Below, piece after piece: positions 732-26,499 of a stretch of 64,000 nt of DNA. The notes under the pieces were generated by a model, which worked only from the letters and a program-made list of their open reading frames with translations, ran no database searches and was not told the origin of the DNA. This DNA is from Sandaracinus amylolyticus. Lineage in GTDB: Bacteria > Myxococcota_A > Polyangia > Polyangiales > Sandaracinaceae. Each line of letters begins with the position of its first letter. The stretch's first letter is position 1. The stretch covers positions 8,122,001 to 8,186,000 of the forward strand of contig NZ_CP011125.1 in NCBI RefSeq assembly GCF_000737325.1, written 5' to 3'. A program made the translations under genes and the position numbers.

Positions 732-778
732 CGCCGTCTCATACGACGGAGATGAGCCAGCGGCGACGTCGCGCGCGA

Positions 779-1921: not shown

Positions 1922-2190
1922 TCCGAACGTTCCTGTCCCGACCCCCACGGCCGGGTGCTCGCCCTCTTGGCGACGACCGCCTCGACGCAGCGTCGCGCTC
2001 GTGAGCGGCCGCACGCGCGGGCGCGCGACCGACGGAGCGCGCGCGATCACCCCGCGGGATGTTCGCGAGACGGAGCAGACGCGGGTGCCTACGCCGGCGC
2101 GCGGACTGCGGGTGCTCTCGTCCGCAGTCCTCGCCGGCGACGAGCGCGCCGAGGGCGGTCGCGCGCGCTGCGTGGCATCTTCCGCGGCGC

Positions 2191-2799
2191 ATGCTGCTGT
2201 TCCAGAAGCGCTTCCACGAGGGCCTCACGAGCGGTGCGATCACGCTCACGTTCCGCCGGTGGGACAAGCCGCACGTGAAGGTCGGCGGGCGCTATCGCTG
2301 TCATCCGATCGGCGTGCTCGAGGTCGATCGCATCGAGCGCGTGCGGGTCTCCGAGATCACCGAAGCGGACGCGACGCGCGCCGGGTTCGACTCGCGCGAC
2401 GCATTGATCGAGTACGTGCGGACCGCGCGGGACGCGACGCTCGACGCGACGAGCGAGCTCTATCGCATCGAGCTCCATCACGGCGGTGACGGCGATCGCG
2501 TGGAGCTCGCGCTCGAGGCCGAGCCGACACCCGATGAGATCGCGACGATCCGCGCGAAGCTCGCGCGCATGGACGAGGGCGGCCCGTGGACGGCGCGCAC
2601 GCTCGCGCTGATCGAGAAGCACCCGCGCGTCGCGGCGTCGCAGCTCGCGAAGAAGCTCCGGCGAGAGACGCTGCCGTTCAAGACCGACGTGCGGAAGCTG
2701 AAGAAGCTCGGGCTCACCCAGAGCTTCGAGGTCGGATACGAGATCTCGCCGCGCGGGCGCGCGTACCTCGCGGCGACGCGCCCTCGCCGGAAGAAGTGA
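2191..2799 (+). CDS. ASCH-domain-like protein
   Basis: The product has 202 residues. The N-terminal half reads like an ASCH (PUA-superfamily, RNA-binding) domain: F-x-x-x-F-H-E-G-L-x-S-G, then T-x-R-R-W-x-x-P-x-x-x-x-G-x-x-Y with V-x-V-x-x-I near residue 50. The C-terminal 80 residues resemble a small winged-helix segment ([27 protein letters not shown]), ending in a basic tail. The ATG at 2191 is chosen because the longer frame to 2059 adds only Arg-rich, low-complexity sequence. A known role of ASCH proteins is nucleic-acid or modified-base binding. A combined ASCH plus helix-turn-helix arrangement suggests a regulator or RNA/DNA-associated factor, which is inference only. Confidence 0.8.
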
Positions 2800-2846
2800 A
2801 CGCCGTAGCACCGAATGGTAGAGTCGCGGCCCACTCGCCGTCATCG

Positions 2847-5366
2847 ATGACTTCGGATCCTCACGAGCTGCTGACACGGATCGAAGAGCACGCTCGCGCG
2901 GCGCTCGACGGTCGTACCGAGGCATCGGCGGCGCTGGAGGCGATCGCCCGGCTCGCTTCGCAGTCCACGCCAGTCGCGAAGCGGGACCACGACCGCGAGA
3001 GCTCGAGCGTCCTCAAGAACATCATCGACCACATTCCGTACGTCGTGTTCTGGAAGGACGTCCGCTCCGTCTATCTCGGATGCAACGCGGCGCTGGCGCG
3101 GATCGGAGGCCTCGCGAGCCCCGACGACATCGTGGGTCGCGACGACTTCTCGATGCCGTGGACGAGGGAAGAGGCCGAGTTCTTCCGCTCCGTCGATCGC
3201 CGTGTGATGGAGTCGGGCGAGGCCGAGCTCGACATCGAAGAGACGCAGGTCCAGGCCGATGGCCGTCAGCGCGTGATTCTGACGAGCAAGGTCCCGCTGC
3301 GCGACGAGTCCAATCGGATCATCGGCATCCTCGGAATCTTCACCGACATCACCGAGCAAAAAGAGCTCGAGCAACAGCTCCGCCAGGCGAAGGACGCCGC
3401 CGAGGTCTCGGCGCGCGCGAAGTCCGACTTCCTCGCGGTCGTGAGCCACGAGCTGCGCACTCCGCTCACGCTCATCCTCAGCCCGCTCGAGTCGCTGCTG
3501 TCCGAGGCGCGAGGGGAGCTGCCGGCGCGGGTCGTCGACACGCTGGAGAGCGTCCATCGGAACGCGCAGCGCCTGCGGATCCTCACCGAGGACATCCTCG
3601 AGTTCAGCCGACGAGAAGCCGGGCACCTCGCGCTCGATCCACGACCTCTCGACGTCGCGGCGCACGTCGGACAGCTCGTGCTCGATCTCGCGCCCGCCGC
3701 CGCTGCGCGTGGGCTCGAGCTCCGCGCGACGACGCTCGATCCGGCGCTCGGCGTCGCGCTCGTCGACATCGCGAAGCTCGACAAGATCCTGATCAACCTG
3801 CTCGGGAACGCGCTGAAGTTCACGCCCGCAGGCGGCGAGATCACCGTGTCGGCAGCGCTCGTCGACGAGACGATCGTGCTCGCCGTGCGCGACACCGGCA
3901 TCGGCATCGACCCCGCCGATCACGAGCGCGTGTTCCGGCGCTTCGAGCAGATCGAAGGCGGCTCGGCGCGCGCGCACGGAGGAGTCGGGCTCGGGCTCTC
4001 GTTGGTGAAGGGGCTCGTCGACTCGATGGACGGATCAATCTCCGTCGAGAGCGAGCTCGGCCGAGGCGCGACGTTCACCGTGCGCATCCCGCGGCGCGCG
4101 GCCGATCGCGGCGCGCGCTCTCCGGTGCGCGATCTCGATCTCACGCCGCGCGCGCTGATCGTGGACGCGCCCGCCGACTCGCCTGCGTCGCCGACTTCCG
4201 CGCGCGCACCGGCGGACGCGGCGCGCGTCGTCGTGGCGGAGGACAGCAGCGATCTGCGGCAGTACCTCACGCAGCTCTTGAGCGCGGAGTTCCAGGTCGT
4301 CGCGGTCGCGAACGGACAGCTCGCGTACGAGGTGATCCGCGAGCTGAAGCCCGACGTCGTCGTGTCCGACGTGATGATGCCCGTGATGGATGGCTTCGAG
4401 CTCGTCCGACGGCTCAAGGCCGACCCCGCGCTCGCGACGATCCCCGTCGTGCTCCTCACCGCGCGCGCGGGCGCCGAAGCGGCCGCGGACGGGCTCGATC
4501 GCGGCGCCGACGACTATCTGAGCAAGCCGTTCAGCCCGCTCGATCTGCTGGCGAGGGTCCGATCCGCGCACCGCATGAAGGTGCTGCGCGATCGTCTGCT
4601 CGAGGCACATCGCCGCGCGGCCGACGCAGAGCGCGAGGAGACGCTGCGCGACACGCGCGCGGCGCTCGCCGAGCTCGGCAAGGTCGCGAGCCTCGGAGAG
4701 ATGGCGGCCGCGATCGCGCACGAGCTCAATCAGCCGCTGGCGGGCGTGGGCCTCAGCGCGCGCGCGCTCATGCGGTGGCTGCGCGCCGAGCGGCCCGACA
4801 TGGACGAAGTGCAGGCGGCCGCGGATCGGATCGTGCGCGACGTGAAGCGCGCGGCCGACGTCGTCACGCGCATCCGCGAGCTCTTCGGCAATTCCTCGGG
4901 CGCGAAGGTGCCCGTCGACGTGAACGACGCGGTGACCGAGGTCATCGCGTTGACGCGGGACCGCATGCGCGATGCGGGGGCGTCGATCCGAGCGGAGCTC
5001 GCGCCGGATCTACCGCCCGCGCTCGGCGATCGCGTGCAGCTCCAGCAGGTCATCGTGAACCTCGTGATCAACGCGGCGGACGCGATGCGCGACGTCAGCG
5101 ATCGTCCGCGCGAGGTTCGGCTCCGGACGCAGCTCGAGGCAGGGCGGGTTCGAGTCGACGTGAGCGACGTCGGCGTCGGCGTGTCGGACGACGACAAGGA
5201 TCGCATCTTCAACGCCTTCCACACGACGAAGGCCGGCGGGATGGGGATCGGGTTGTCCATCTGCAAGACGATCGTCGAGAGCCACGGCGGAAGGCTCGTG
5301 GTGTCGAGCCACGACGGACCGGGCTCCACGTTCCACTTCGCGCTTCCGCTCTTCCAGCCGGAATGA
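2847..5366 (+). CDS. hybrid sensor histidine kinase with two kinase cores (PAS-HK-REC-HK)
   Basis: This 839-residue cytosolic sensor has no membrane spans. The order is: a PAS domain with PAC tail (about residues 55-175, ending [12 protein letters not shown]); a first HisKA with SHELRTP (His near residue 201) and HATPase with N-box [15 protein letters not shown] and GVGLGLSL; a receiver domain (about residues 458-575) with acidic ED pair, phospho-Asp in VVVSDVMMP near residue 507 and the KPF lysine; a coiled linker; then a second HisKA with IAHELNQPL (His near 624) and HATPase with [16 protein letters not shown] and MGIGLSICK. The second core is of the FixL/DctB HELNQPL type. The ATG at 2847 is chosen over an upstream frame of Arg/Ala-rich sequence. 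No response regulator lies next to it, so the output partner is encoded elsewhere. Confidence 0.93.
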
Positions 5367-5394
5367 CGCTCGCGCGAGCGCGCGCACCTCGAGG

Positions 5395-6879
5395 TCAGGG
5401 CTCGCAGTCGGGCGCGGGTCCCGGCGACTCGAGCCCGAACACGTGACGGTCGAACGTGCGGAGGATCTCCGTCGAGCGCGACGCGCAGTAGAGCGCCGTG
5501 CGGAGCTCTTCGGTCGTGTAGTCGCGCCCGTGGCGTGCGACGAAGAATTCGCGGAGGAGCTGGTGCAGCGGCGCCGCGCCCAGCTCGTTCGCCCACGCGC
5601 GGAAGAGATCCGCGCCGAGGAAGTAGTGGTCGTCGTCGGCCCAGCCGCGCACCCAGCCCGTGCCCTCGAGCCGCGTCGGCGGTCGATCTCCGAGCGGCCT
5701 CGGCTCGACGTAGTTCTCGTAGTAGGTGACGAGCGCCTCGTCGATCCAGTTGTGCCGAGCGCGACGCGGGTACGCGCCGCGTCCGATCCACGAGTGCATG
5801 AGCTCGTGGCGCAGCAGGCGCGGCACGGTGAGCGTCGCGCCCGCGTGCTCCATCCCGTAGCTCTCGGGCGTGATCACCGCGAGGAACGCGGGGTGCGGAT
5901 AGGGCCCGAGGAAGCGCTCGAAGTCCGGGATCGAGGCGACCACCTCGTCGGCGAGCGGCTCGATCGCCTCCGTGTGATCGGGCATCGCGACGACGGTGAT
6001 CGCGACGTCGCCGACCGACCTCTCGACGACGCGCATGCCCTCGGACGGCGCGAGATACCAGAAGTGCGAGCTCGAGCGGAACGTCGCGGGATATCGAACG
6101 GTCCAGTCGTTCTCCGCCGACGTCTCGATCTCGCCGTTGGCGAACAAGCGGTGCGGCGCGCCCCCGACGACGACGAAGCGGATCGTCGACTCGAACGCGT
6201 CGTGCACCAGGCTCGCGGGCAGCCAGCTCTCCAGGTACATGCCCGGGCGCTGATCGGACATCCGGGGCGCCCAGATCACCGTGTCCGCCTCGGCGTCGAA
6301 GCGCGGCACGCGACGCGGCGCATCCGTCGCGCCGGCGGGGGTCGGCGCGAGCTCGTAGCGCGCGGTGACGACGTGCGTGCTGCACGGCGACACGGGCAAG
6401 AGCCTGATCGTCGACGGCGTGCTGCCGGGCAGCGTGGCGGTGCCGATCGCGTCGCCGGCGATCGTGGCTCCATCGACCTCGAGCTCGGCGGGCTGCTGGA
6501 GGAGATCGAACACGATCGGGTCCGCGCTGGGGCCGGTGCGGATCGTCCAGGTCACGTCGGCCGTCGTGCGCTGCGCCGCCACGTCGAACGTGAAGACGGC
6601 GTCGAGCGACGCGACGTCGGCCCACGCCGAAGACGGCGTCGTGCCGGGCGGCTCGAGATCGAACAGCTCGGCGCACGCCGGTGGGCCGCCGTCGGTCCCC
6701 GCATCGACGCTCTGGGAGCCCGCGTCGGGCGTGCCGCTATCGGGCGCGCCCGCGTCGACCGCGGTGCTCGGCTCGTCGCCGCAACCGGCGAGGAGCAGCA
6801 GCGCGAGCGTCGCGAGTGGTGCCGCGCCGCGGCGACGGTTCGATCGACGAATCGAGCGTTCGAGTCGGTGAGCACGCAT
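5395..6879 (-). CDS. lipoprotein gluzincin metallopeptidase (M1/M61-like)
   Basis: The protein has 494 residues. The N-terminus is Arg-rich followed by a hydrophobic stretch and lipobox (LLLAGC), then a D/A/G/S-rich spacer typical of myxobacterial lipoproteins. Around residue 360 is HELMHSW, a HExxH zinc site. About 18 residues later comes NWIDEALVTYYENY, supplying the third zinc ligand Glu, so the catalytic apparatus of M1/M61 gluzincins is present. The first part has the beta-rich look of an M1-type N-terminal domain. It is predicted to be an outer-surface or periplasmic aminopeptidase-like enzyme; its substrate is unknown. It converges with the histidine kinase upstream, with a 28-bp gap, so the two are not an operon. 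Confidence 0.85.
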   Translation of the reverse strand: MRAHRLERSIRRSNRRRGAAPLATLALLLLAGCGDEPSTAVDAGAPDSGTPDAGSQSVDAGTDGGPPACAELFDLEPPGTTPSSAWADVASLDAVFTFDVAAQRTTADVTWTIRTGPSADPIVFDLLQQPAELEVDGATIAGDAIGTATLPGSTPSTIRLLPVSPCSTHVVTARYELAPTPAGATDAPRRVPRFDAEADTVIWAPRMSDQRPGMYLESWLPASLVHDAFESTIRFVVVGGAPHRLFANGEIETSAENDWTVRYPATFRSSSHFWYLAPSEGMRVVERSVGDVAITVVAMPDHTEAIEPLADEVVASIPDFERFLGPYPHPAFLAVITPESYGMEHAGATLTVPRLLRHELMHSWIGRGAYPRRARHNWIDEALVTYYENYVEPRPLGDRPPTRLEGTGWVRGWADDDHYFLGADLFRAWANELGAAPLHQLLREFFVARHGRDYTTEELRTALYCASRSTEILRTFDRHVFGLESPGPAPDCEP

Positions 6880-7364
6880 ATGTGATTGGAGATCACCGCT
6901 TCGTCACCGAGTGGTCAAGATCCGATCACGTTCGCCCGCGTGCAGAGGACGAGTGATGGAGGACGAGACGACGTACCGTCGGTCCTGCGCAGGAGCGCGG
7001 TGAACGTCGACTGCATCGCGGCGAGCGCTGCAGCTCGACACCGAACGAGCGAGCAGACTCGAGCGCTCCGACTCACCACGACACGACTCGAATCAATCGA
7101 GCATCGCAGTCGCTCAGCGCAAGAGTCGGAGCCTCGAACACCGATGCTCGCGAAGCGGATCTCGCGTTTCCGAAAATTCCGCGCACAGCGCGCCCTGATC
7201 ACGCGCGCAGCGCGCCCGACGAAGACGTCCCAGAAAACAGGACCACGTCCGTCACGACTACGCGCTTTCCAGTGAAAGCGCGCATTCGAGCGACAGTGTC
7301 AATCACCACGAAACCGTGGTGACACGAGCAAAAACGGATGTGAGGAATCTCGTCGCTCGATGAA
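6880..7364. promoter_or_regulatory. intergenic region with two dyad-symmetric elements before the TonB operon
   Basis: This 485-bp stretch separates divergent genes. I see no convincing gene: the open frames here have no family motif or ribosome-binding site. Two strong dyads sit just before tonB. The first, 7261-7282, has 9-bp arms CGCGCTTTC/GAAAGCGCG around the loop CAGT. The second, about 7296-7325, has TCACCACG/CGTGGTGA around AAAC, with outer GTGTCA/TGACAC arms. Neither is followed by a T-tract, so they look more like operator or leader structure than terminators. The region is less GC-rich than the flanking genes, as expected for promoters. Confidence 0.5.
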
Positions 7365-8177
7365 ATGCATACCGTTAGTGAGTCGCGAGCTCGAATGCGA
7401 CACCTCGTCAATCTCACGAGCACACTGACGTCGATCGCAGTCCATGCGACGGGAGTCGTGGCGGCAATCTGGCTTTCGACTGGAATCCAGACGTCACCTC
7501 CTCTGGATGAGCCGGTCACACTGACATTCTTCGATCCCAGCCCACCGCCGCCTCCACCACCGCCGCCCGGAGGATCTCCAGCACCGCAGTCGACGGTGAG
7601 CGCAGCGCCGCAGACGCCGCGACCGGTGCGACCGCGGCGAGCCCCCGACGAGCTCGTCGCGCCGAGCGAGACGCCCGCCGAGCCGCAGCCCGCGGAGCCC
7701 GAGCCCGTCGTCGACGCGCCGGTCGAGACTCTCGCGAGCACGGAGGAAATCGGGCCTGCCGAGGGCGGCGCGGCGGGCGGCGTGCCCGGCGGAACGCCCG
7801 GCGGTGTCGCGGGCGGCGTCGTCGGAGGCGTGCACGGCGGGCAGCTCGGAGGCGTGGTCGGAGGAGCGGGCACGGGGCCCGTCACGCCCGTCTTCATGCC
7901 GAGCGACATGACTCCGCCGCGCCTCGTCTCGGGCGAGCAGCCGGGGCACACGCCGCAGGCGCTGAGCGCGCGTGTGGAAGGGACGATGATCCTGCGCATC
8001 GCCATTCGTCCCGACGGGACGGTGGGAGAGGTGCAGGTCGTGCGCGGACTGGCGCTCTTGACCGAGCACGTGGTCGCGACGGTGTCGCGGTGGCGCTTCT
8101 CGCCGCCGGTGTACCAGGGCCGTCCGATCTCGATCTACCTCACTCAACGTCTTCGATTCGAGATCACCGGGAGATAA
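7365..8177 (+). CDS. TonB-family energy transducer
   Basis: The 270-residue protein has a short cytoplasmic N-terminus, one membrane span (about residues 20-40), a poly-proline run of nine prolines near residue 62, a Pro/Glu-rich spacer, and a long Gly-Gly-Val repeat section (about residues 130-170). It ends in a TonB C-terminal fold with the VEGTMILRIAIRPDGTVG signature and a terminal VSRWRFSPPVYQGRPI motif. It would span the periplasm and pass proton-motive energy from ExbBD to the outer-membrane receptor encoded four genes downstream. An alternative start is the in-frame ATG at 7395. The Gly-rich insert replaces much of the usual Pro-Lys/Pro-Glu rod. It is the first gene of a compact operon. 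Confidence 0.92.
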   Translation: MHTVSESRARMRHLVNLTSTLTSIAVHATGVVAAIWLSTGIQTSPPLDEPVTLTFFDPSPPPPPPPPPGGSPAPQSTVSAAPQTPRPVRPRRAPDELVAPSETPAEPQPAEPEPVVDAPVETLASTEEIGPAEGGAAGGVPGGTPGGVAGGVVGGVHGGQLGGVVGGAGTGPVTPVFMPSDMTPPRLVSGEQPGHTPQALSARVEGTMILRIAIRPDGTVGEVQVVRGLALLTEHVVATVSRWRFSPPVYQGRPISIYLTQRLRFEITGR

Positions 8178-16174: not shown

Positions 16175-17152
16175 GTGACAGCTCGGCGCCCACTCGTCCC
16201 CGGCGTCTACGACGCGCCCGTCACGGCCGCGCTGCAGGGCTCGCTATCCTCGCTGCCGCCGGACCTCCACGAGACCGAGCCGCTCGACCCAGCCGACTCC
16301 CCACGCACCCTCGCGCGGTTGATCCACGGGCGGCTCGTCCACGCGCTCGCGGCGTTCTCCACCTCGCGCGACGACGCGCTCGAGCGCCAGCTCGAGCTGA
16401 CGAACCGAGTGCTCGCGGTGCTCGAAGACGTGCCGGGCTCGGGCGCCAGCGCCGACGATCACATCGTCCCGCCCGGCGCGCGCCTCCTCGCGGTGCGCGA
16501 CCCCGCGGCCACCGCGCTCGGCCGCCCCGCCTCGCCGGCGCGCCCCGAGATCCCGCTCGCCACCAGCGACCTCCTCGTCAACGGCCGCCACGACGTCTCG
16601 CTGGGGCCCGAGGTGAAGCGCGAGCTCGCGTCGGCGGATCGCGTCGACCTGCTCTGCTCGTTCCTCAAGTGGAGCGGCTACCGCCTCGTCGAGGACGCGC
16701 TGCGCGCTCACCTCCAGCGCCGCCCCGGCTCGGTGCGCGTGCTGACGACCGCGTACATGAGCGCGACCGATCGCCGCGCGCTCGACGAGCTCGCCGCGCT
16801 GGGCGTGCAGCTCAAGGTCTCGTACGACACCACGCGCACCCGCCTGCACGCCAAGGCGTGGCTCTTTCACCGCGACTCCGGCTTCTCGACCGCGTGCATC
16901 GGCAGCTCGAATCTCTCGGCCGCCGCGATGCTCGACGGGCTCGAGTGGAACGTGCGGCTCTCGCAGGTCGACAACGGCCCCATCCTCGACAAGTTCCGCG
17001 CGACCTTCGAGCAGTACTGGGAAGACCCCGAGTTCGCGCTAGCTCGTCGTCGCGCCCCGTCCGCAGCATTCGCGTGCCGGCGCGGCGTGTTACGGTCGCG
17101 CCGACGTGCTCCAATCTGCTGCAATAGGAACCGCGATGGATTTCCATTCTAG
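16175..17152 (+). pseudogene. truncated phospholipase-D/helicase (DUF3427-type) gene, N-terminal part only
   Basis: The frame starts at GTG 16175 (325 codons). Residues 1-290 read like the N-terminal region of the large PLD-nuclease/superfamily-2-helicase/DUF3427 proteins: an opening PGVYDAPVTAALQ, SADRVDLLCSFLKWSGY, then the PLD-type HAKAWLFHR motif (HxK) near residue 229 and SSNLSAAAM. Full-length relatives are normally around 1000 residues, with Walker motifs after this point. Here homologous-looking sequence stops at about 17040 (WEDPEFALA), then turns into Arg/Cys-rich nonsense that overlaps the next gene start. No helicase remainder is found downstream. I read this as a gene cut by the insertion of the defence island at its right side. 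A stand-alone PLD nuclease is the alternative. Confidence 0.6.
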
Positions 17153-18692
17153 AGAGACCCCGATCGATGAGCTTCTCACCGGCGTGGACGCCGGCCAACT
17201 CGCTCTCCCCGAGTTTCAGCGCGAGTTCATTTGGTCGCCGAGCAATGTCCTTGAACTGCTTCGGAGCATCGCGCGACGCTGGCCCACCGGCACTTTTCTG
17301 TTGCTTGAAGGACACGGCGGGCAATTCGCGACGCGACCGATTGACGGCGCCCCGCCGCCCGCAAAACGCCCAAGGATACTGGTGCTGGACGGCCAGCAGC
17401 GGATCACTGCCCTCTATCACGCCCTCCGCCCCGTCGCCGAAGAGGTGTATTTCCTCGATGTACAGAAGCTCGTAGGAGAGGAACCCGACGAAGCCTTCCG
17501 ATTTACGAAACGCAGTTCTTTTGACGCTCAGTATCCGAACACGAAGGCTCTCGCGACTGCGCTGATTCTGCCGTTCTCGGTCATGTATGACGACGATTCG
17601 TTCTACGACTGGTTGAAGCATGTCGCGGAACCTTTTCAGTCCCAGGTCCGGCGCGCACGGGACCGCGACTTCGCGGGGCTCCGTCGTCACGTCTACCGAA
17701 TGCCCTGCATCTATCTGTCCCCCGGAATCGAACTGGCGGCACTCGCAAAAATCTTCGAAACGCTGAATCGCACCACCGAACGACTTGACACGTTCGATCT
17801 CATGACCGCTTCGGTGTACTCGGAGGGCCTCAACCTCCGCAAGGAATGGAGCGACGCTACTGACGAGTATCCGCTCCTGGATCGCTTTTCTGTCGATCCT
17901 CTTGAGATCCTGAAGCTGATTGTACTCGCCGATGGACTCTTGGGGGACGGCAGACCAGGTGTCCGCCAGTCGGACGTTCTGCGACTGAGCCCAAAGATCG
18001 TGCGGGCCCGCTGGTCGCGATGCGTTCAAGCGTATGCAGACGCCCTTCGGATCGCCTCACAGCGGTTCGGAGCTATCAGCGCTGGTTTGCTCCCGTCGCG
18101 CGCGATGGTGCTGCCGCTAGCGACTGCAACCATCAGCGACCCGCTTGCATCGGATTCCGCCGCGATTGAGCGCTGGTGGTGGCGGTCTGTCTTTCGACAG
18201 TCCTACGCTCAGGGCGCAAATACTCAGGTCGTCGTCGATGCTAGGGCGCTGGTTACGCTTGAACCGCGCAGTGTTGGCGGCGTAGAGGTCACACCTGACG
18301 TCATGCTGGACTCCCGACGTCGCAACGAGATGCTGACGCGTGGCATATGTTGCATGCTGACGACCGACGGCGCTCTTACACAGGAAGGCATTCCTGTGCA
18401 CCAGTCACCGACGGGAGCGACGACAGAGCCTACACGGATCTTCCCCGTCGACTCCGAGCCTCAACTCGACGTGGTTGCGAACTATATGGTCGCAACGCGG
18501 AATGGGCCGCGACGTCGCCGTGACTACGGTGCGCGTGAAGATCTGCTCGCAGCGGGCTCCCGCGGCTCGACGATCGCTGAGTCGCAGATGATCTCGTGGC
18601 GAGCTTTGCGCCTGGACTCCGCTTCTCAACTGCTCAAAGAGCGCGCGAAACTGCTCGCTCAGCAAGCAGAAGCGAAGATGCAACGGGGCTGA
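17136..18692 (+). CDS. DUF262-domain protein (GmrSD N-terminal/ParB-like fold)
   Basis: The 518-residue protein starts at ATG 17136, with AGGAA upstream; a GTG at 17106 is possible. The N-terminal 200 residues are a DUF262 domain: ELLTGVDAGQLALPEFQREFIW, then RILVLDGQQRITALYHAL (the DGQQR motif near residue 95), and later IFETLNRTTERLDTFDLMTA. DUF262 is the ParB-related NTP-dependent half of GmrSD-type type IV restriction enzymes and of several other defence proteins. The C-terminal half has no visible HNH (DUF1524) motif, so nuclease activity, if any, must come from a partner. Codon use is clearly less GC-extreme than in flanking genes, a sign of transfer. It leads the + strand set DUF262-membrane protein-Vsr-methyltransferase. 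Confidence 0.88.
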   Translation: MDFHSRETPIDELLTGVDAGQLALPEFQREFIWSPSNVLELLRSIARRWPTGTFLLLEGHGGQFATRPIDGAPPPAKRPRILVLDGQQRITALYHALRPVAEEVYFLDVQKLVGEEPDEAFRFTKRSSFDAQYPNTKALATALILPFSVMYDDDSFYDWLKHVAEPFQSQVRRARDRDFAGLRRHVYRMPCIYLSPGIELAALAKIFETLNRTTERLDTFDLMTASVYSEGLNLRKEWSDATDEYPLLDRFSVDPLEILKLIVLADGLLGDGRPGVRQSDVLRLSPKIVRARWSRCVQAYADALRIASQRFGAISAGLLPSRAMVLPLATATISDPLASDSAAIERWWWRSVFRQSYAQGANTQVVVDARALVTLEPRSVGGVEVTPDVMLDSRRRNEMLTRGICCMLTTDGALTQEGIPVHQSPTGATTEPTRIFPVDSEPQLDVVANYMVATRNGPRRRRDYGAREDLLAAGSRGSTIAESQMISWRALRLDSASQLLKERAKLLAQQAEAKMQRG

Positions 18693-18705
18693 ACAAAGGG
18701 CTGTC

Positions 18706-19557
18706 ATGGCAGAAGAACTCAACACCCCCCCTTCCCGACGCAACTTTTGGCTCGCAGCAGTATCGATCTACGCCGTGGTCGTGGTGGCCTGGCTGGTGAC
18801 CCCGTGGGCTGTCGGCACTCAGGCGAACTCACCTGAGACGCGAGGGCAGTTCGGCGACATGTACGGCGCGCTGAACTCGTTGTTCTCGGCGCTGGGTTTT
18901 GCGACCGTGTTGGTCACACTGTGGAAGCAGAATGACGATGTCCGAGCGCAGCTTGCGGAGATGCGGCGAGCTCGCCATTTCGAAGACAAACCGATCGTGA
19001 TGCTGCAGCCCGGGGAGTACATGTCGATCAACCCCGGGCCCGCTTCGACGGGTGATGATGGTGCCGTGGAAGTACGAGCGCCGCTTGAAATCAGAGCCGC
19101 TGTTGCCAGTCTCGCAGAATCCCCGGCATTGAACGTGGTGTGTGACTGGAGCATTCAAGCGGGCATTGAGAGTCTTGGCGCGGGTTCGGTCCAGTACGGC
19201 ATGTTGGGCGGGCGGGACGCATCTCAGGAGCTCGTGATCAAGTGTCAAGTCACCGCCACTCGTCTTCGCGCGGTCCATTCGGGGCTGGTCCTCAAGCCCA
19301 GCACCGCAAGGCCGGAGCTTCACGTTACTATCGGCTATGCAAATGTCGGAACGGGACGATTCCGAACGAAACAAGTCTTCAAGCTCTCGGTGGGAGACGA
19401 GGATGACGATGCCGCCCTCGTGGCATTGGTCGAGAGCTGGGATCGCCCTACGAAGAACGGCCAGAATGGCGTCAACGTGTCTGCAGCGGACAGAAGTATC
19501 CGACTCATCGCACAGCATGATCAGTCGCGCTTTCAATGCGGTCCTTTGGGTGTCTGA
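18706..19557 (+). CDS. two-span membrane protein, possible abortive-infection type
   Basis: The 283-residue protein has a first hydrophobic helix at about residues 14-36 and a second at about residues 53-72. The second sits in the segment GDMYGALNSLFSALGFATVL followed by LWKQNDDVRAQLAEM, and a soluble domain of 190 residues follows. The short membrane module (GD-x-x-G-x-x-N-x-L-F-S-x-L-x-F) resembles the N-terminal membrane part of putative phage-abortive-infection (putAbiC-like) proteins. The soluble domain is beta-rich with no motif I recognise. It starts 13 bp after the DUF262 gene, so it is in the same operon. A membrane effector or tether for the DUF262 protein is a reasonable guess, not shown. 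Confidence 0.7.
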   Translation: MAEELNTPPSRRNFWLAAVSIYAVVVVAWLVTPWAVGTQANSPETRGQFGDMYGALNSLFSALGFATVLVTLWKQNDDVRAQLAEMRRARHFEDKPIVMLQPGEYMSINPGPASTGDDGAVEVRAPLEIRAAVASLAESPALNVVCDWSIQAGIESLGAGSVQYGMLGGRDASQELVIKCQVTATRLRAVHSGLVLKPSTARPELHVTIGYANVGTGRFRTKQVFKLSVGDEDDDAALVALVESWDRPTKNGQNGVNVSAADRSIRLIAQHDQSRFQCGPLGV

Positions 19558-19646
19558 CGAAATGGCCATGGCGGACAGCCCACGTTCCGCTGCTCAGCCC
19601 ATCGACCCACGCCGCGGCCCAACTCCTACATGCTACGTCCTCAGGC

Positions 19647-20087
19647 GTGACTGACACCTCGGACGCATGGAGGACGAAGCAGCGGATGCGAGCTGTCCGC
19701 CAGCGGGACACCGTGCCCGAGCGAATGCTCCGTCAGTTGCTCCGTCGCGCCGGCGTCCATTACCGGATCTGCCCCCGCGACCTCCCGGGACGGCCCGACG
19801 TGGCGAACAAGTCGCGGCGGTGGGCGGTCTTCGTCCACGGCTGCTTCTGGCATGGACACCGCGACTGCAAGCTGGCAACCGTGCCCAAGACGAACACGGC
19901 GTTCTGGGTGGCCAAGCTCGAAGCGAACCGGCAGCGGGATGCTCGGAAGGTGCGCGCGCTGCGGGAGCTGGGGTACAAGGTTGCGACGGTCTGGCAATGC
20001 GAACTGGAGAACGATCTCGAGGCAGTGCTGCCGCGACTACTGCGCCAGCTGGACCTGAGCAAGGGCTCGACGCAGCCGCAGAGATAG
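19647..20087 (+). CDS. vsr: very short patch repair endonuclease (Vsr)
   Basis: From GTG 19647 the product has 146 residues, the usual Vsr size. It shows RMRAVRQRDTVPERMLRQLL at the start, the catalytic Asp in LPGRPDV, the zinc and active-site segment VFVHGCFWHGH, then FWVAKLEANRQRDARKVRAL and GYKVATVWQCEL, all family hallmarks. Vsr nicks 5' to T in T:G mismatches that arise from deamination of 5-methylcytosine. Its place directly before a C5-methyltransferase, overlapping it, is the classic arrangement. The upstream extension to 19536 overlaps the previous gene and is not supported. Confidence 0.93.
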   Translation: MTDTSDAWRTKQRMRAVRQRDTVPERMLRQLLRRAGVHYRICPRDLPGRPDVANKSRRWAVFVHGCFWHGHRDCKLATVPKTNTAFWVAKLEANRQRDARKVRALRELGYKVATVWQCELENDLEAVLPRLLRQLDLSKGSTQPQR

Positions 20088-21277
20088 GCGGCGACGACCT
20101 CCTGTACCTGCTCGGCCAGCGTACGCCGGCGCGTCCGGAACGCAGTCACTCCCCACCCCTGCGCATCGTCGATCTCTTCGCGGGATGCGGCGGAATGACG
20201 GCAGGTGCCGTCGAGGGTGCAAAGGCAATCGGACGGGTCGGGGAAATCGCGCTCGCAGCCGAGATCGACAAGGCGGTGCGTGCGGTGTACCGGGATAACT
20301 TCCCGACGGCGAACGTGCATCCGCAAGGGGATGTGGTCGAGTTGTTCCCGTCTGCGCTCGGGTCCCGCCTGTCCGACGGGGAGCGGATGCTCGCGAAGTC
20401 GCTCGGGCCGATTGAGCTGCTGGTCGGGGGCCCCCCGTGTCAGGGGCACTCCAATCTTAACAACCATACACGCCGCCGGGATCCCAAGAACGCACTGTAT
20501 TCTCGAATGGTTCGCGCAGCGGAGGTTCTCGAACCGCACATGATCGTCATCGAGAACGTGCCGTCCGTACGGCGTGACCGTGGAGATGTCGTGAAGTGCG
20601 CGCTCGAGCGCCTCGTTGGCCTCGGTTACAGCGTTGCTGACGGAGTCGTCGCGATGTCTCAGATCGGCGTGCCGCAGCGCCGTTTCCGGCACCTGCTTCT
20701 TGCGACGCGAACACACGTGCCGTCGGTCGACCATCTCGTGGCGACGCATCGCCGCCCCGAACGCTCGCTGCACTGGGCGATCGCAGACCTGGAGTCCGTC
20801 GATCCGGAGCAGCCGTTCGACATGGCCGCCCGCCTCTCCGATGAGAATCTCGCTCGCGTGCGCTGGTTGCACAAGCACGATCGCTATGATCTGCCGAACT
20901 CAAAGCGTCCAACGTGTCACCGAGGCAAACCCGACCATCGATACAAGTCGATGTACGGACGCATGCGGTACGACCAGCCCGCGCAGACGATCACCACTGG
21001 CTTCGGGTCTCCGGGCCAGGGGAGATATCTTCACCCAACCCGGCTGCGTACGCTGACTCCCCACGAGGCGGCTCGGGTTCAGTTTTTTCCGGACTCTTTC
21101 ACGTTTGGACGAGCGGCGACCCGAGCGGCACTGGCGCACTGCATCGGGAATGCAGTGCCGCCCAAGCTCGGCTACGCAATCGTGCGCTATCTCGGTTCGC
21201 TTGTCGCAGGCGTGGAACTTGCGATTCAACCTTCCGACGGAACGCCTTCCAAGTCGCTCGCCGAAGCTGCCGAGTAG
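19997..21277 (+). CDS. DNA (cytosine-5-)-methyltransferase
   Basis: The frame encodes about 426 residues from ATG 19997, but the first recognisable residue block begins near 20160, so the true start may lie anywhere from 19997 to about 20115 (CTG or other weak codon). The motifs are in order: motif I VDLFAGCGG, motif IV GGPPCQGHS with the catalytic Cys, motif VI VIENV, motif VIII QRRFR, a target-recognition stretch around RPTCHRGKPDHRYKSMYGRM, motif IX/X PHEAARVQFFPD and GNAVPPKLG. It produces 5-methylcytosine at an unknown site and presumably protects host DNA from the linked nuclease genes. It overlaps vsr by 91 bp (if 19997 is correct), and its 3' end overlaps the convergent SAP-protein gene by 52 bp. 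Confidence 0.9.
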   Translation: MRTGERSRGSAAATTAPAGPEQGLDAAAEIGGDDLLYLLGQRTPARPERSHSPPLRIVDLFAGCGGMTAGAVEGAKAIGRVGEIALAAEIDKAVRAVYRDNFPTANVHPQGDVVELFPSALGSRLSDGERMLAKSLGPIELLVGGPPCQGHSNLNNHTRRRDPKNALYSRMVRAAEVLEPHMIVIENVPSVRRDRGDVVKCALERLVGLGYSVADGVVAMSQIGVPQRRFRHLLLATRTHVPSVDHLVATHRRPERSLHWAIADLESVDPEQPFDMAARLSDENLARVRWLHKHDRYDLPNSKRPTCHRGKPDHRYKSMYGRMRYDQPAQTITTGFGSPGQGRYLHPTRLRTLTPHEAARVQFFPDSFTFGRAATRAALAHCIGNAVPPKLGYAIVRYLGSLVAGVELAIQPSDGTPSKSLAEAAE

Positions 21278-22494
21278 GACCGAAGACTCGCTTCATCCGA
21301 CTGCGCGAAGTGGTCGATCGCACGCAGGATGCGCTCCTTCTTCGAGCCGGAGCTGCGCAACTTGAGCCGTTTCAGAAGCGCCTCGATGTCATCGCTCCCG
21401 AGCGCCTGGAGGAGCGACTCCTCGGCGCGATGCGACTCCCATAGCGTGCGGACCTGCGAGTCTTTCGTGCCCCAACGCCTCAGGTCGAACTCGCCGGAGA
21501 TCGCGGCGAGTTCGTGACCACGCAGTTGTGCGAACAAGAGTCCGAAGCGCTCTTCCGGGAGACGGCGCTGCTCTCGAATAGGAGGCGCCGGAGGCGGCTC
21601 CGCTTCTCCGCGCACATCCCGATCCGCCGCTACGTGCGCGATGATCCTACTGACGAGTTCCTCCTTTGCGCCCGAAGTGTTTGCGCCCATCTGCCGGCAG
21701 ATCTCGCGCAGCCGATCGACGCCGAAAGCACGACTGCGCAACAGAAGCCGGGGCTGCGCCAGATGCGCGATCAGACGTTCGACTTTCTCATCCTTCGTAC
21801 CGCTCGTGGCAGCCTGGACGAGCTGCAGTGCCTCGTGGAGCTCCGCCGAAGTTAGATAGCCGAACAGCCGGCGAGCCTGGGTCCTCGCCATGTCGACCCC
21901 CAACACCTGTCTCACCACCGGTGCGACATCATCGGCGATGACGGTTCGGCCATCGTGAACGAAGACAAGACCGGCGGAGCGGAGCGCGTGCAGAGCGCGT
22001 GCAAATCCGCCCTCCTGACCCCAGAACTCGCGAAGCTCCCGACAGTGTTCGATGAGAAAGTGCTCGACCTGAGCGATTCCAAGCTCTTGCCGCAAGACGG
22101 AGAGAATCGCAGCCTCGGAGGCATCGATCTGCATGTCGTTGCTGCGCGCCTGGTACAGAACGCGGCGATAGACGCGCAGCTGGTCGTCGCGAGCGAGTAT
22201 CGCCGACGCATCGAGAGCGTCGCAGATCCGTTTCGTCTCAGCGAGCACGCTCTCGCGAAAGCCCGCGGTAGGAAGCGAGTAGTCCGGTGCGTCGAGCAGA
22301 AGGATGAGAATCGAGAAGGCGGGAGGCTGCCGATTGAAGAGAAAGTCGTGCAAGAAGCGGTAGCTCCGCAACACGCCACCGATCGCTTCCAGCAGCTGCG
22401 GGCCGCTCAAGTGATCGTCGGTGCGGGCATGCTCGTGGGCGAGTCGCTCGATCTCCTCGGGCTGCATGCCCGCCAGCAGGTCCGCGAGTTTCAC
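21226..22494 (-). CDS. SAP-repeat protein of the Z1/DUF4420 locus, unknown function
   Basis: The protein has 422 residues and is not a family I know. Residues 1-225 are helical, with SILILLLDAPDYSLP and a DASEAAILSVLRQELGIAQVEHFLIEHCRE block that has a TerB-like look. From residue 225 on there are three SAP-like helix-extended-loop-helix units: LTSAELHEALQLVQAATSGTKDE, VDRLREICRQMGANTSGAKEE and DDIEALLKRLKLRSSGSKKE. Each has the (T/S)SG-x-K-x-E loop of SAP DNA-binding motifs. A Pro-rich linker sits before the third. It is 13 bp downstream of the DUF4420 nuclease gene, so it is the last gene of the Z1 operon, the position where AIPR-family genes are often found in related loci. A DNA-binding or targeting subunit is likely. 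Confidence 0.8.
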   Translation of the reverse strand: MKLADLLAGMQPEEIERLAHEHARTDDHLSGPQLLEAIGGVLRSYRFLHDFLFNRQPPAFSILILLLDAPDYSLPTAGFRESVLAETKRICDALDASAILARDDQLRVYRRVLYQARSNDMQIDASEAAILSVLRQELGIAQVEHFLIEHCRELREFWGQEGGFARALHALRSAGLVFVHDGRTVIADDVAPVVRQVLGVDMARTQARRLFGYLTSAELHEALQLVQAATSGTKDEKVERLIAHLAQPRLLLRSRAFGVDRLREICRQMGANTSGAKEELVSRIIAHVAADRDVRGEAEPPPAPPIREQRRLPEERFGLLFAQLRGHELAAISGEFDLRRWGTKDSQVRTLWESHRAEESLLQALGSDDIEALLKRLKLRSSGSKKERILRAIDHFAQSDEASLRSYSAASASDLEGVPSEG

Positions 22495-22507
22495 CGCTTC
22501 TGCCTCC

Positions 22508-23473
22508 TCATTCGTGTCCCCAAAAGTGCCGGCGCAAACGTTCGACTACCGTGTGCTCGGCTCGTCGCGCCTCATCCAGCGTCACCAGATACCGTAAGTG
22601 TGAGATCCCCACGTCGACCGCTCTCACCCGGGGTACGTCCGCAGCAGCGTACCACTCGGGCTCGTCAAGCAGCGTGTACCCGGTGCAGTACGCCGCGCGG
22701 TCTGCATGCGAATAGCCCGCGCGCCGTAGGCACCCGAGCAGCTCACGCGGCTCGTCGCATCGCTCGAGCAGTCGTTCGACAAGGCTCGCGACAGTCTCGT
22801 GAGAGTCTGGATCCGGCTTGAGCCACAAGGACAACAGCCACGCGTCGTGTCGTCCTGAAGGCGCATCGACTTGGGAAAGCGAGACAAAATGCTGACGACG
22901 GTTCCGGGACGCCTTTACCTCGACGCTCACGCCGTCAGCGAAGAAGTCGGCTGCATCTTTCTCGGGACCACGCCATGACGCGATGGCGCGATTCACGTCA
23001 TTGCTGTGCTCCAAGAACCAGAGCTCGCCCCAGAGCCCAATCTCCGCCTCCGAACTCGGCCGCCCGCGGCGCGCAAGCAGTGTTTGCCATTCCTCCACGA
23101 GCAAGAGGACACGCGCCCAGTCGGTTCCATGCGACGCCGCGCGCCGCAGAACGTCGCCCGCAAGGATGGAGAACGCATCGAGCAACTCCAGGTCGGTGCA
23201 GACAAGCACAGCCGCAGGGCTGGTCCACGCTCGCCGCTCGTGCTCGAAGCACAGGTTGGGATGAGCGAGTAGCTCGCAGCCGGAGGCGCGCCGGCCAACC
23301 ACGCCAGCGCCGAGAGATGGAAGCGGCAGGACGAGGGCCGGGAGGCCTTTCCTCGTCACCGCTGCGTACGCGAAGGATATCGGTTCGAGAAGCATGTAGT
23401 CTCCCCGGGCATCTGCGCCGGCGTGTCCCGCCGAGTGCCAGGCCGCGCGTAGCTGCGTCGCTTCACGCGTCAT
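22508..23473 (-). CDS. PD-(D/E)XK motif protein (DUF4420), putative restriction nuclease
   Basis: The protein has 321 residues. The centre (about residues 140-200) carries the DUF4420 signature: EIGLWGELWFLE, W-x-GPEKDAADFF and VSVEVKAS, the last giving the E-x-K of a PD-(D/E)XK nuclease core with an upstream Asp. The C-terminal part contains LDEPEWYAAADVPRVRAVDVGISHLRYLV, typical of this family. Members are found with Z1 ATPases and C5-methyltransferases in predicted restriction systems. Its start overlaps the Z1 gene stop by 11 bp, so translation is coupled. The predicted role is DNA cleavage directed by the Z1 motor. Confidence 0.88.
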   Translation of the reverse strand: MTREATQLRAAWHSAGHAGADARGDYMLLEPISFAYAAVTRKGLPALVLPLPSLGAGVVGRRASGCELLAHPNLCFEHERRAWTSPAAVLVCTDLELLDAFSILAGDVLRRAASHGTDWARVLLLVEEWQTLLARRGRPSSEAEIGLWGELWFLEHSNDVNRAIASWRGPEKDAADFFADGVSVEVKASRNRRQHFVSLSQVDAPSGRHDAWLLSLWLKPDPDSHETVASLVERLLERCDEPRELLGCLRRAGYSHADRAAYCTGYTLLDEPEWYAAADVPRVRAVDVGISHLRYLVTLDEARRAEHTVVERLRRHFWGHE

Positions 23474-25610
23474 CGGAAGTCACGTTGACGATCACGCTGG
23501 GCATCTGGCGGTCGAAGACGACCGTGGGATACCAGAACTCGTTCGCGGGCCTGTCAGCGATCTGCTTTCCATCATCGCGAAATGCAGCGAAGACCGGCCC
23601 ATCCTGATTTCGCAGCCTTTCCAGTTCTTTGCCGGAGACAGCGCCCGTCGTGAGCATGCTCCGCCTCCGGTTCATCCTGCGCGTGTACAGATACGCTCTG
23701 CCTTTGCATCGATCGCGTTGTCGCTCGAGTACTCGCCCGATCGCCGCCGGAACCCAACTACTCGACAGCTCCTTCCGGTTGTAGGGGAAGGTCTCGACGA
23801 GCTCGAGCATGACATCGAACTCGATCGGTACGAGTTGGGGCTCTGTGCTCAGGCTGTCCCCGATGAGCGCCTCGATGCGACCGGCGATCGCCTCGTACTC
23901 GGATCGCTTGAGCGTGAGATCCGGATGGATCGGATAGACCTGGTCCTCGGCGTCGAAGGCATCGATGTAGGTCGGATCCAGGACCGCATTGCGTGTTGGT
24001 CGAAGGGATCCCGTTCTCTCGATTACGATCGGCTTGCCGAGGTCAGCCGCGGCCAGCTGTCGACGCAAACGCTGTTCGATGCGATGAATCTCGTGGAACC
24101 GGACGGCGAGCTGTGGCGGAAGAAACACTCGTGTGAGATGCATGAGCGGGGAGCGATAACCGTACATTCTCGCGTGCTGCAGCATCGTATCCATCTGGCC
24201 GACCTTCGGTTGACGCAGATAGTAGGTGACAATGAGGTTATCGATCGTCACACCGCGGCCGAGGATGTTCCCCCCGATAATCAGATTCAGACCCCGGCCG
24301 GGTTCTGCGTCGGCTTCGGAGTTTACGACGATCACTTTGCGGGTGACGAGCCGACGTCGAATTTCGGTGATGACGCTGTCAACAGAAGGGACGCTGGGGA
24401 AGGTGCGCTTCAGCTCGTCGAATGCGGTGTGCAGCTTGTTCAGCCCATCGCCCGAGCCTGCATCGATGTCATCACTGACTCTGTCCACATACGTACGAAT
24501 CAGCTCTTCGAGGTTCCGATGCTGTTGTCTGAGCTGGCTCGTGTGACAGAGGAAATTCTGCCCGGAGCGCGCGGTCGCCGGATCCGTGAGAGCTTGGGCG
24601 CCAGCCGCGACGAGGAAGTAGGCGATCGCGCGCCGAAGTCCGTCGGGAGCATCTGAACTGCCTTGCGCGAGTTCCACGGACTCGTTCGGATCGACGAACA
24701 CGAGCGGTGGCTCGGGGCCGTCTACGTGATGTGACTCGAAGAAGTACTCGCCGCCTGTGTACCCGTCGCCAGGTTCGAGCAGCCGTGTGAAGCTCGGCCT
24801 CAACTCGGTCCCCACGCTCTGCAGCAGCAGCGCGTACGGCGTTGCGGTGACCTGAAGGAAGACGTGGTGACGAAGTGTCTTACGGAGTCCGTCGACGACG
24901 GCGGTATAGATCGCCGTCGGGTCTCCGGGCACCTCTCCCTTGGTTTGCTTCCGGACGTTCCTTGCAAGGTTCGCGTCCAGAGTCGCCTGGTCGGCCTCGT
25001 CGTCGAGGATCAGCGCAGGGAACTCCGGTGCACCGATTTTCTCGAGGAAGGTGATCAGTGCATCCAGTCGCGTCTTGTTCTTAGAGCAAACGAACACCAC
25101 GCCTGCCTGCGCAAGGTGCTTCCCGATGTGCTTGTGGTCGCTCGACCACGCGCTCGGATTGAGCGCATCCAGCGGGATCGGCCCTTCGAGCGCGGCAAAC
25201 CGCTTCGTCGTTTGGTCGACGAGCGTGACGTTGTCGGAGGTAAGCACGACGACAACACGGAAGCCGTTGTCGATCGCAGCCGCGACCAGCGCGATCATCG
25301 CGACGGTCTTGCCGCTCTGGATGCGACCGTAGAGCAGGCCGGTGCACGGTTTCGTCGGCGGCTGCGGGCTCGCGCAGACCGAGCCGTCAGCACCGACCTC
25401 ACCCGGCGCGACCTCGGCCTCGTACGTCTGCACGACACGGCCGAGTAGCGCGAGCGCGTCTTGACGGATCTTGTCCAGCGCGGCGCCCGACATCGGCTTC
25501 GGCCCGGCGCCGAGCGCTTGCAACGTCCCGTTCAGACATGCGCCGTCGCCGCGTAGGACTGGGGCAGGAGCGGTGGCGAGCTTCGCAATGCCAACAGGCC
25601 CGGTAGACAT
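23463..25610 (-). CDS. Z1-domain superfamily 2 ATPase/helicase
   Basis: The product has 715 residues from ATG 25610. Upstream frame sequence (to 25826) is Arg/Pro-rich and rejected. Walker A is GRIQSGKTVAMIAL near residue 100, the DEAD-like Walker B is LILDDEADQA near residue 200, and motif III is TATPYALL. The Z1 block in the middle of the C-terminal half contains GGNILGRGVTIDNLIVTYYLRQPKV in part, followed by MLQHARMYGYR, which correspond to helicase motifs V and VI. Z1 proteins are known from restriction-like neighbourhoods with GHKL/MORC ATPases, DUF4420, Vsr and Dcm methylases. It heads the - strand operon Z1-DUF4420-SAP protein. No GHKL ATPase gene is present here. Confidence 0.9.
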   Translation of the reverse strand: MSTGPVGIAKLATAPAPVLRGDGACLNGTLQALGAGPKPMSGAALDKIRQDALALLGRVVQTYEAEVAPGEVGADGSVCASPQPPTKPCTGLLYGRIQSGKTVAMIALVAAAIDNGFRVVVVLTSDNVTLVDQTTKRFAALEGPIPLDALNPSAWSSDHKHIGKHLAQAGVVFVCSKNKTRLDALITFLEKIGAPEFPALILDDEADQATLDANLARNVRKQTKGEVPGDPTAIYTAVVDGLRKTLRHHVFLQVTATPYALLLQSVGTELRPSFTRLLEPGDGYTGGEYFFESHHVDGPEPPLVFVDPNESVELAQGSSDAPDGLRRAIAYFLVAAGAQALTDPATARSGQNFLCHTSQLRQQHRNLEELIRTYVDRVSDDIDAGSGDGLNKLHTAFDELKRTFPSVPSVDSVITEIRRRLVTRKVIVVNSEADAEPGRGLNLIIGGNILGRGVTIDNLIVTYYLRQPKVGQMDTMLQHARMYGYRSPLMHLTRVFLPPQLAVRFHEIHRIEQRLRRQLAAADLGKPIVIERTGSLRPTRNAVLDPTYIDAFDAEDQVYPIHPDLTLKRSEYEAIAGRIEALIGDSLSTEPQLVPIEFDVMLELVETFPYNRKELSSSWVPAAIGRVLERQRDRCKGRAYLYTRRMNRRRSMLTTGAVSGKELERLRNQDGPVFAAFRDDGKQIADRPANEFWYPTVVFDRQMPSVIVNVTSDDA

Positions 25611-25944
25611 GCGGCGAGCGTACCGCGACCAAAGAATCTGCCGCAATGGCTGTGACTCGCGCCGATCCGTCCCCGGCGGGGGACAGGACGACGGTGCGTC
25701 GGGAACCTCGTTTCCACGGGGCGGCCTGATGCGCGAGCAGCTCAAGCGTTCAGCACGCACGACCCTCTGGGGCTCGCATACGTCAGAAACGCCTCCTACC
25801 CCGTGAACTGCGGCGCGCCTGTACACGGTTCGGTCGTGGCCTGCGTCGTCGAGACCGTTCTCCGACGCGGCGCTACCCGCGATAGACCGTCGATGGGCAC
25901 GACGCTGATCGTGCGAACGAAGCCCGCGTTCGACGCTAGCCCCC
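25611..25944. other. intergenic region between the Z1 gene and the palindrome array
   Basis: These 334 bp hold the promoter side of the Z1 operon and presumably the right border of the defence island. No gene is supported. At 25892 there is a half-conserved relative of the array palindrome (GATGGGCACGAC), 53 bp before the first full copy. A CTGTACACG-GTTCG string near 25818-25833 has a near match at about 16136-16150 left of the truncated helicase gene. Confidence 0.4.
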
Positions 25945-26380
25945 GATGGGTCCGACCCATCCCCACCGACTCCAATCTCGATCTCGATGGGTCCGACCCA
26001 TCACGACCGACTCCAATCTCGATCCCGATGGGTCCGACCCATCCCAACCGGCTCCAAGCTCGATCTCGATGGGTCCGACCCATCACGACCGACTCCAATC
26101 TCGATCTCGATGGGTCCGACCCATCACTCATCGAGAAAATTCTCGACCACCGATGGGTACGACCCATCCCTCATCGAGAAAAATCTCGGCAACCGATGGG
26201 TCCGACCCATCCCTTTCGCCCCAAAACTCGACGACCGATGGGTCCGACCCATCCCCCATCGAGAAAATTCTCGGCAACCGATGGGTCCGACCCATCCCCC
26301 ATCGAGAAAATTCTCGACCACCGATGGGTCCGACCCATCCCGATCGACTCCAAACTCGATCCCGATGGGTCCGACCCATC
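25945..26380. repeat. array of eleven 17-bp palindromes, helically phased
   Basis: The sequence GATGGGTCCGACCCATC (8-bp arms, one central base) occurs at 25945, 25986, 26027, 26068, 26109, 26152, 26195, 26237, 26280, 26323 and 26364. Only the copy at 26152 differs (A for C at position 8). Spacing is 41, 41, 41, 41, 43, 43, 42, 43, 43, 41 bp, close to four helical turns, so all copies face the same side of the duplex. Linkers fall into two families: 24-bp linkers ending in CTCGAT(C/T)C after ACTCCAA, and 25-26-bp linkers, most with a second dyad CGAGAAAATTCTCG. The linkers are therefore related to each other, unlike CRISPR spacers. All reading frames stay open through the array, which produces spurious repeat proteins. 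The likely role is a multi-site protein-binding array. Confidence 0.92.
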
Positions 26381-26499
26381 CCGCGCACCGAAAATCTCGA
26401 CCCACGTCGATTTTCGACGCAACGCCGGAACCACACGCGCCGATGAGGGGGCACTCGCGAACAAGAGCGAGTCGAACCCCGGAAGGAGTGTGTGTCCCC

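Follow-up and report, generated by a model that had tools for sequence, protein, structure and literature searches.

A horizontally acquired Z1-DUF4420-SAP locus in Sandaracinus amylolyticus and its relation to ATP-dependent restriction systems

The association of Z1, DUF4420, Vsr and C5-cytosine DNA methyltransferase (C5-MTase) genes was described by Iyer et al., 2008 (PMC2292703), and a reading of the present locus from its sequence alone had pointed to this association correctly. In the 64,000 nt stretch analyzed here (the window), from the chromosome of the soil bacterium Sandaracinus amylolyticus, these four families are accompanied by a protein with SAP repeats, a DUF262 protein and a small membrane protein. 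The sequence-only reading took the locus for a MORC/GHKL-type system minus its GHKL gene, to which the latter two proteins had been added. We asked to which restriction systems the locus is related and which of its genes belong together. The comparisons below indicate that the locus is real and acquired, and that it is probably a functional restriction system of rare composition.

Gene content and insertion site

An open-frame check and scans with Pfam, PADLOC and NCBIfam profiles found all seven named genes present and intact, in two convergent sets and at the coordinates first assigned to them (Table 1). The C5-MTase and SAP open frames share 52 bp at their 3′ ends, and the start of the C5-MTase is uncertain, as the ATG at 19997 falls within vsr. 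The SAP protein occupies the last position of its operon, and no island protein matched a GHKL ATPase or AIPR (MzaE) in these scans, both as had been read from the sequence. PF13589 was not among the matches listed near the island, and the GHKL N-box motif is absent. When the SAP protein was tested against the AIPR and GHKL families, it matched neither. The Vsr protein exceeds the curated cut-off of TIGR00632 and thus belongs to the Vsr family. The best PADLOC model for the C5-MTase was DruM2, but among the island matches listed there was no Dru match besides DruM, and Druantia type II was rejected.

Table 1. Features of the locus, in window coordinates.
Feature	Position	Strand	Evidence
Truncated type IV PLD-helicase gene of SauUSI-like layout, reduced to its PLD part	16175..17152	+	PADLOC mREase_IV PDLC03659 6.5e-59, profile 13-180 of 945
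DUF262/GmrSD_N protein, DGQQR motif, no DUF1524/HNH part	17136..18692	+	PF03235 5.8e-21, aa 11-226
Small membrane protein	18706..19557	+	two predicted N-terminal transmembrane stretches, aa ~14-36 and ~53-74 (by eye)
Vsr-type T:G mismatch endonuclease	19647..20087	+	TIGR00632 3.4e-36, 124.1 bits vs cut-off 97.85
C5-cytosine DNA methyltransferase	19997..21277	+	PF00145 2.6e-46, 159 bits; motifs PPCQ, ENV, QRR
SAP protein: helical N-terminal part and SAP repeats	21226..22494	-	PF02037 2.2e-12
DUF4420, predicted PD-(D/E)XK nuclease	22508..23473	-	PF14390 2e-31
Z1, DEAD-Z1 helicase-like putative motor	23463..25610	-	PF10593 1e-35; PADLOC Helicase_II 8.6e-75
Acquired block carrying the system	17040..26100, edges approximate		flanks collinear with sister genome G002, interior different

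The GC3 of six of the seven island genes is 0.67-0.75 and that of vsr is 0.84, compared with 0.94-0.95 in the flanking genes, which bears out the earlier remark on less GC-extreme codon use. The GC content drops from ~0.73 to 0.60 at 17,000 and climbs back beyond ~27,000. The host genome is a single contig of 10,327,335 bp, and its comparison with the sister genome G002 of the same genus showed that the left flank is collinear up to window position 16670 and that the right flank resumes at 26101, with 85-94% identity. At the same site (L080, C1:10098001-10118000, 1-7900), G002 carries other cargo instead of the island, namely a PLD-DUF3427 gene without the helicase middle, a gene for a 650-aa HTH protein and one for an ATPase-domain protein. 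As different genes lie between the shared flanks, this chromosomal site is a place of gene-cargo exchange. The low-GC3 block from 17,040 to ~26,000 was horizontally acquired. Attachment-site repeats were sought at the island edges, but the longest shared word was a 10-mer, as expected by chance.

The first gene of the interval had been left unnamed. Its full-length homologue in G002 spans 1043 codons, and the similarity stops at window position 17039. The comparison identifies the gene as the truncated N-terminal PLD part of a predicted PLD-helicase-DUF3427 type IV enzyme, outside the system. Because the homology to the full-length relative ends where the island starts, this gene marks the left insertion edge.

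Just right of the island, a 41-43 bp repeat with the palindromic core GATGGGTCSGACCCATC forms an array at positions 25942-26401. This core has 45 exact sites in the host genome, in four arrays, and 14 in G002, in two arrays. It was found in neither G001 nor G007, and a reversed control pattern gave no site.

A recurrent five-part set and its variable partners

With the SAP protein as probe, we found one strong homologue in 144 related genomes (G106) and a second in 377 genomes of the phylum (G198). A search of 84,980 species with a pattern built on two conserved peptides, which more distant members may escape, returned the G106 and G198 records and one more, L067. Z1, DUF4420 and SAP have the same order at the four loci (the window, L067, L068 in G106 and L069 in G198), with the Z1 gene of G106 lying past the contig end and the G198 set being split across two contigs. 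Pairwise identities are 66-71% for Z1, 46-64% for DUF4420 and 59-66% for SAP (59-62% between the window SAP and the other three). A C5-MTase and a mismatch-repair enzyme adjoin the core in all four despite rearranged order; the latter is Vsr in the window, G106 and G198, and an HhH-GPD glycosylase in L067. Z1, DUF4420, SAP, C5-MTase and a mismatch-repair enzyme are thus a recurrent five-part set, while the complete set of seven genes is found together only in the window. The conditions under which the sequence-only reading would have failed give a mixed result, as the seven genes do not recur together but five parts do, and the SAP protein matches neither AIPR nor GHKL. No homologue of the SAP protein was found in viral contigs and plasmids, and no description of the Z1-DUF4420-SAP combination was found in the open-access literature. 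The system looks like a new combination of mostly known families, of rare composition.

None of the other three core loci encodes the DUF262 or the membrane protein, and no further instance of the pair came to light. DUF262 relatives are widespread in the phylum, where 60 of 282 genomes have them as diverged genes, and the membrane protein is nearly unique, with only short, weak relatives in these 282 genomes. No Pfam, PADLOC or NCBIfam family reached its cut-off with the membrane protein, and the 'putAbiC-like' label given to it could not be kept. Assignment of the DUF262 protein to the GmrSD type IV systems was also rejected, as only PF03235 was found and the DUF1524 HNH domain is absent. 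All seven genes could be one system, in which DUF262 would be a nucleotide-binding regulator and the membrane protein an effector or anchor, as DUF262, the membrane gene and vsr are co-directional, with gaps of 13 bp (DUF262 to membrane gene) and 89 bp (membrane gene to vsr), and all seven genes lie in the one acquired block. However, the GC3 of both genes (0.67-0.68) is lower than that of the core genes (0.73-0.75), and given their absence from the other loci we attach very little weight to a seven-gene system. Because the other core loci are without both, DUF262 and the membrane protein are treated as probable passengers rather than as added components.

The C5-MTases at the four loci are of three types: those of G106 and G198 are 61% identical, and those of the window and L067 share 25-33% with the others. 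Despite this, the identity of Z1, DUF4420 and SAP among the loci is even along the chain. Beside the MTase, G106 and G198 encode an REase-like protein (L007 6717-7589 and L043 2043-3176) with an ExK motif seen by eye and no match to a Pfam family. In L067, a 631-aa SAP and PLD nuclease-like protein (4875-6770, minus strand) is encoded directly upstream of, and divergently from, the Z1-DUF4420-SAP operon. The window island carries neither the REase-like gene nor the SAP-PLD nuclease.

The change of MTase type beside a core that stays alike could mean that Z1-DUF4420-SAP is a self-contained anti-phage module blind to methylation, with the MTase and Vsr left over from a standard type II system that moves along with it. 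The REase-like genes beside the MTase and Vsr of G106 and G198 would fit such a remnant, the REase of the window having been lost. This explanation nevertheless seems unlikely to us, since at all four loci the core has a C5-MTase and a mismatch-repair enzyme as neighbours and since a C5-MTase link is also seen in other Z1 systems such as NgoAVII.

Glycosylases of the Mig.MthI type, which act on T:G mismatches, occur beside C5-MTases in restriction-modification contexts, and the L067 glycosylase likewise adjoins a C5-MTase. In the PDB, this HhH-GPD protein of the MutY/MIG type is closest to MUTYH and to 1KEA, an enzyme for T:G mismatches, with near-equal E-values. Its chain stops past the FeS cluster and lacks a C-terminal domain like that of MutY. 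At the specificity sites A50, Y126 and L187 of Mig.MthI it has Ala, Tyr and Trp, respectively, the third residue being the difference from Mig.MthI. The L067 glycosylase is likely a T:G enzyme, while A:G specificity is also possible. The Tyr of its 'GRY' motif was not accepted as proof of T:G specificity, because human MUTYH has Tyr too and, according to one paper, this residue by itself does not settle the matter. The exchange of Vsr for a MutY/MIG-type glycosylase independently supports the notion that Vsr in such operons would be the repair partner of the MTase and not the attacking nuclease.

Three SAP repeats had been proposed for the SAP protein, which is borne out in part. Only one SAP match passes alone in the window protein, compared with three in the L042 homologue, but a counterpart of the third motif is present in the alignment of each of the four homologues. 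Distant relatives from myxobacteria of the same phylum (L044 5423-7252, L045 9613-10932, L046 13273-14946 and L047 9264-10802) have a homologous N-terminal region and SAP repeats (window residues ~49-300) and end in a FokI-like cleavage domain (FokI_cleav_dom), whereas the window protein ends in a further SAP repeat. Three of these four are not beside a Z1 gene, unlike the window SAP, and one SAP-FokI relative (G218) belongs to what looks like an operon with C5-MTase, Z1 and DUF4420 genes. A weak TerB match, not above the cut-off, was seen in three members. These SAP proteins with a FokI-like end look like an uncharacterised nuclease family. Because its distant relatives carry this nuclease domain, we propose that the window SAP protein is a DNA-targeting subunit. 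The earlier idea of a variant restriction system with its own DNA-targeting subunit thus stands as to the variant system and a SAP DNA-binding protein, and its targeting role is what we infer from the SAP-FokI relatives.

Residues D176, E185 and K187 of DUF4420 are invariant in the alignment of the four core loci. Because this D...ExK set, the basis of the nuclease prediction by Iyer et al. (PMC2292703), is kept, DUF4420 is taken as a putative nuclease. Structure models of SAP and DUF4420 from the four-sequence alignments had mean pLDDT values of 60 and 57, too poor to use, and Foldseek searches with them gave no significant match. With the SAP region, Foldseek retrieved the SAP protein DEK, a weak match (prob 0.54-0.60, E above 1) that was set aside. 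Sequence searches of the PDB with Z1 and SAP found no relative.

Position of the Z1 motor

The window Z1 has intact Walker A, DDEAD, TATP and motif VI sequences in the motif alignment. We compared 23 Z1 proteins in a tree, 15 with a neighbouring GHKL ATPase and eight without. Nine GHKL partners were recognised from their homology with annotated ATP-binding proteins or from a Pfam PF13589 match, and the other six from the N-box E[AS]xQNSWDA, carried by a gene next to Z1 or DUF4420 that PADLOC PDC-M33A matches as well. The GHKL-free proteins are those of the three SAP-type loci with Z1 (that of G198 joined from two contig ends at an inferred junction), the plasmid Z1s of Rhizobium, Calothrix and Nostoc, that of a Neisseria locus, and G316. 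The Neisseria locus was verified as the NgoAVII type, with an NgoFVII-type endonuclease carrying PLD and B3 domains (PLD-B3) and a C5-MTase.

One branch (99/98) parts all 15 GHKL-partnered Z1s from the window Z1 and the other GHKL-free Z1s, NgoAVII included, and none of 500 shuffles gave as good a split. The Rhizobium Z1 is the sister of the window group (99/98). A placement of this group on the GHKL side was rejected (p-AU 0.014), in a test chosen once an initial FastTree analysis had revealed the split and on an unrooted tree in which the NgoAVII and G316 branches are long. Motif VI reads QHxR in the Z1s of the window, Rhizobium, Calothrix, Nostoc, NgoAVII and G316 and Q[RMW]xR in the others, and the alignment of the window Z1 to NgoAVII spans query residues 59-697. 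On the Rhizobium gallicum plasmid (L062 8489-12211), Vsr, Z1 and C5-MTase genes lie together without DUF4420 or GHKL. Its Z1 is the closest plasmid relative of the window Z1 (35% over 96%), and its MTase is 47% identical to that of L067.

These results bear on the possibility that the locus derives from a MORC/MZA-type system from which the GHKL ATPase and AIPR genes disappeared and in which the SAP protein became a substitute. The shared Z1, DUF4420, Vsr and C5-MTase families (PMC2292703) and the fact that DUF4420 was otherwise found in this analysis only in GHKL loci would agree with such a loss, as would weak matches of the window Z1 to NCBIfam MzaC (4e-22) and of DUF4420 to MzaD. However, these reach 78 of 1500 bits and 44.7 of 420 bits, far below the cut-offs, and MZA membership was rejected. 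As the window Z1 lies on the GHKL-free side of the tree, the descent from a GHKL-type locus put forward by the sequence-only reading is disfavoured, and we regard it as highly unlikely.

Proposed action and comparison with known systems

ATP-dependent cleavage has been reported for both CglI and NgoAVII, and ATP-dependent translocation for CglI, whose Z1 subunit hydrolyses ATP in a DNA-dependent manner, powers the translocation and is required for the R-subunit to cleave (PMC4267653, PMC5737866). By analogy, we lean towards a multi-subunit, CglI-like, ATP-dependent restriction-modification system in which DUF4420 and SAP replace the PLD-B3 endonuclease. The C5-MTase would mark and thereby protect the host's own sites. 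Z1, as a DEAD-Z1 motor resembling the H-subunit of CglI/NgoAVII, would be activated by unmarked DNA and then track along it, and DUF4420 would cut; that Z1 moves and DUF4420 cuts is suggested by the roles of the Z1 subunit and R-subunit of CglI. The SAP protein, as a SAP-FokI relative whose nuclease domain is replaced by an extra SAP repeat, may bind DNA and keep motor and nuclease there in a complex, so that DUF4420 and SAP would jointly stand in for the PLD-B3 R-subunit. Vsr would mend the T:G mismatches left by deamination of 5-methylcytosine, and DUF262 and the membrane protein would be separate cargo of the island.

Several points count against this CglI-like model. The NgoAVII branch in the Z1 tree is long, and none of the three core proteins was seen to carry a target-recognition domain, their identity being even along the chain beside MTases of three types. 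Either the MTase gives specificity to restriction, or another protein does, or the core ignores methylation. The nuclease paired with the MTase could be another protein, because G106 and G198 have the REase-like gene and L067 the SAP-PLD protein, of which the window has neither. Alternatively, the core might be a general restriction engine that has no recognition domain itself and takes its specificity from the neighbouring C5-MTase, such that MTase exchange alone would shift the defended sites. Borrowed specificity would explain a core of 46-71% identity alongside three MTase types, but we consider it improbable.

If the CglI-like model is right, the Z1 motor is paired with at least three nuclease modules, namely PLD-B3, DUF4420 with GHKL, and DUF4420 with SAP, and the GHKL-free Z1 branch gains a second layout. 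The four loci would then be a natural set in which to ask how restriction by an ATP-dependent complex stays matched to its methyltransferase when the type of that enzyme varies.

Among known systems, the MORC/paraMORC Z1 systems (the third class of Iyer et al., 2008; MZA; PADLOC PDC-M33) share Z1, DUF4420, C5-MTase and Vsr with the window, DUF4420 being their 'novel restriction endonuclease', and the window likewise combines Z1 with a predicted E-D-ExK nuclease. In contrast to them, the island has neither GHKL ATPase nor AIPR, its Z1 comes from another branch, and SAP is present. CglI/NgoAVII, which consist of a C5-MTase, a PLD-B3 R-subunit and a DEAD-Z1 H/N-subunit, share with the window the C5-MTase, a stand-alone DEAD-Z1 ATPase on the same side of the tree, the QHxR motif VI and the lack of GHKL. 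They differ in that the island encodes DUF4420 and SAP instead of an RE_NgoFVII/B3 protein, and in that a mismatch-repair enzyme is always present at window-type loci. Because the PLD-B3 R-subunit is absent, and the truncated gene at 16175 with its PLD fragment lies outside the island, we liken the window system to CglI/NgoAVII in its presumed action and do not count it as a member. On the basis of these comparisons, the system is related by its putative motor to CglI/NgoAVII and by its putative nuclease to MORC-type loci.
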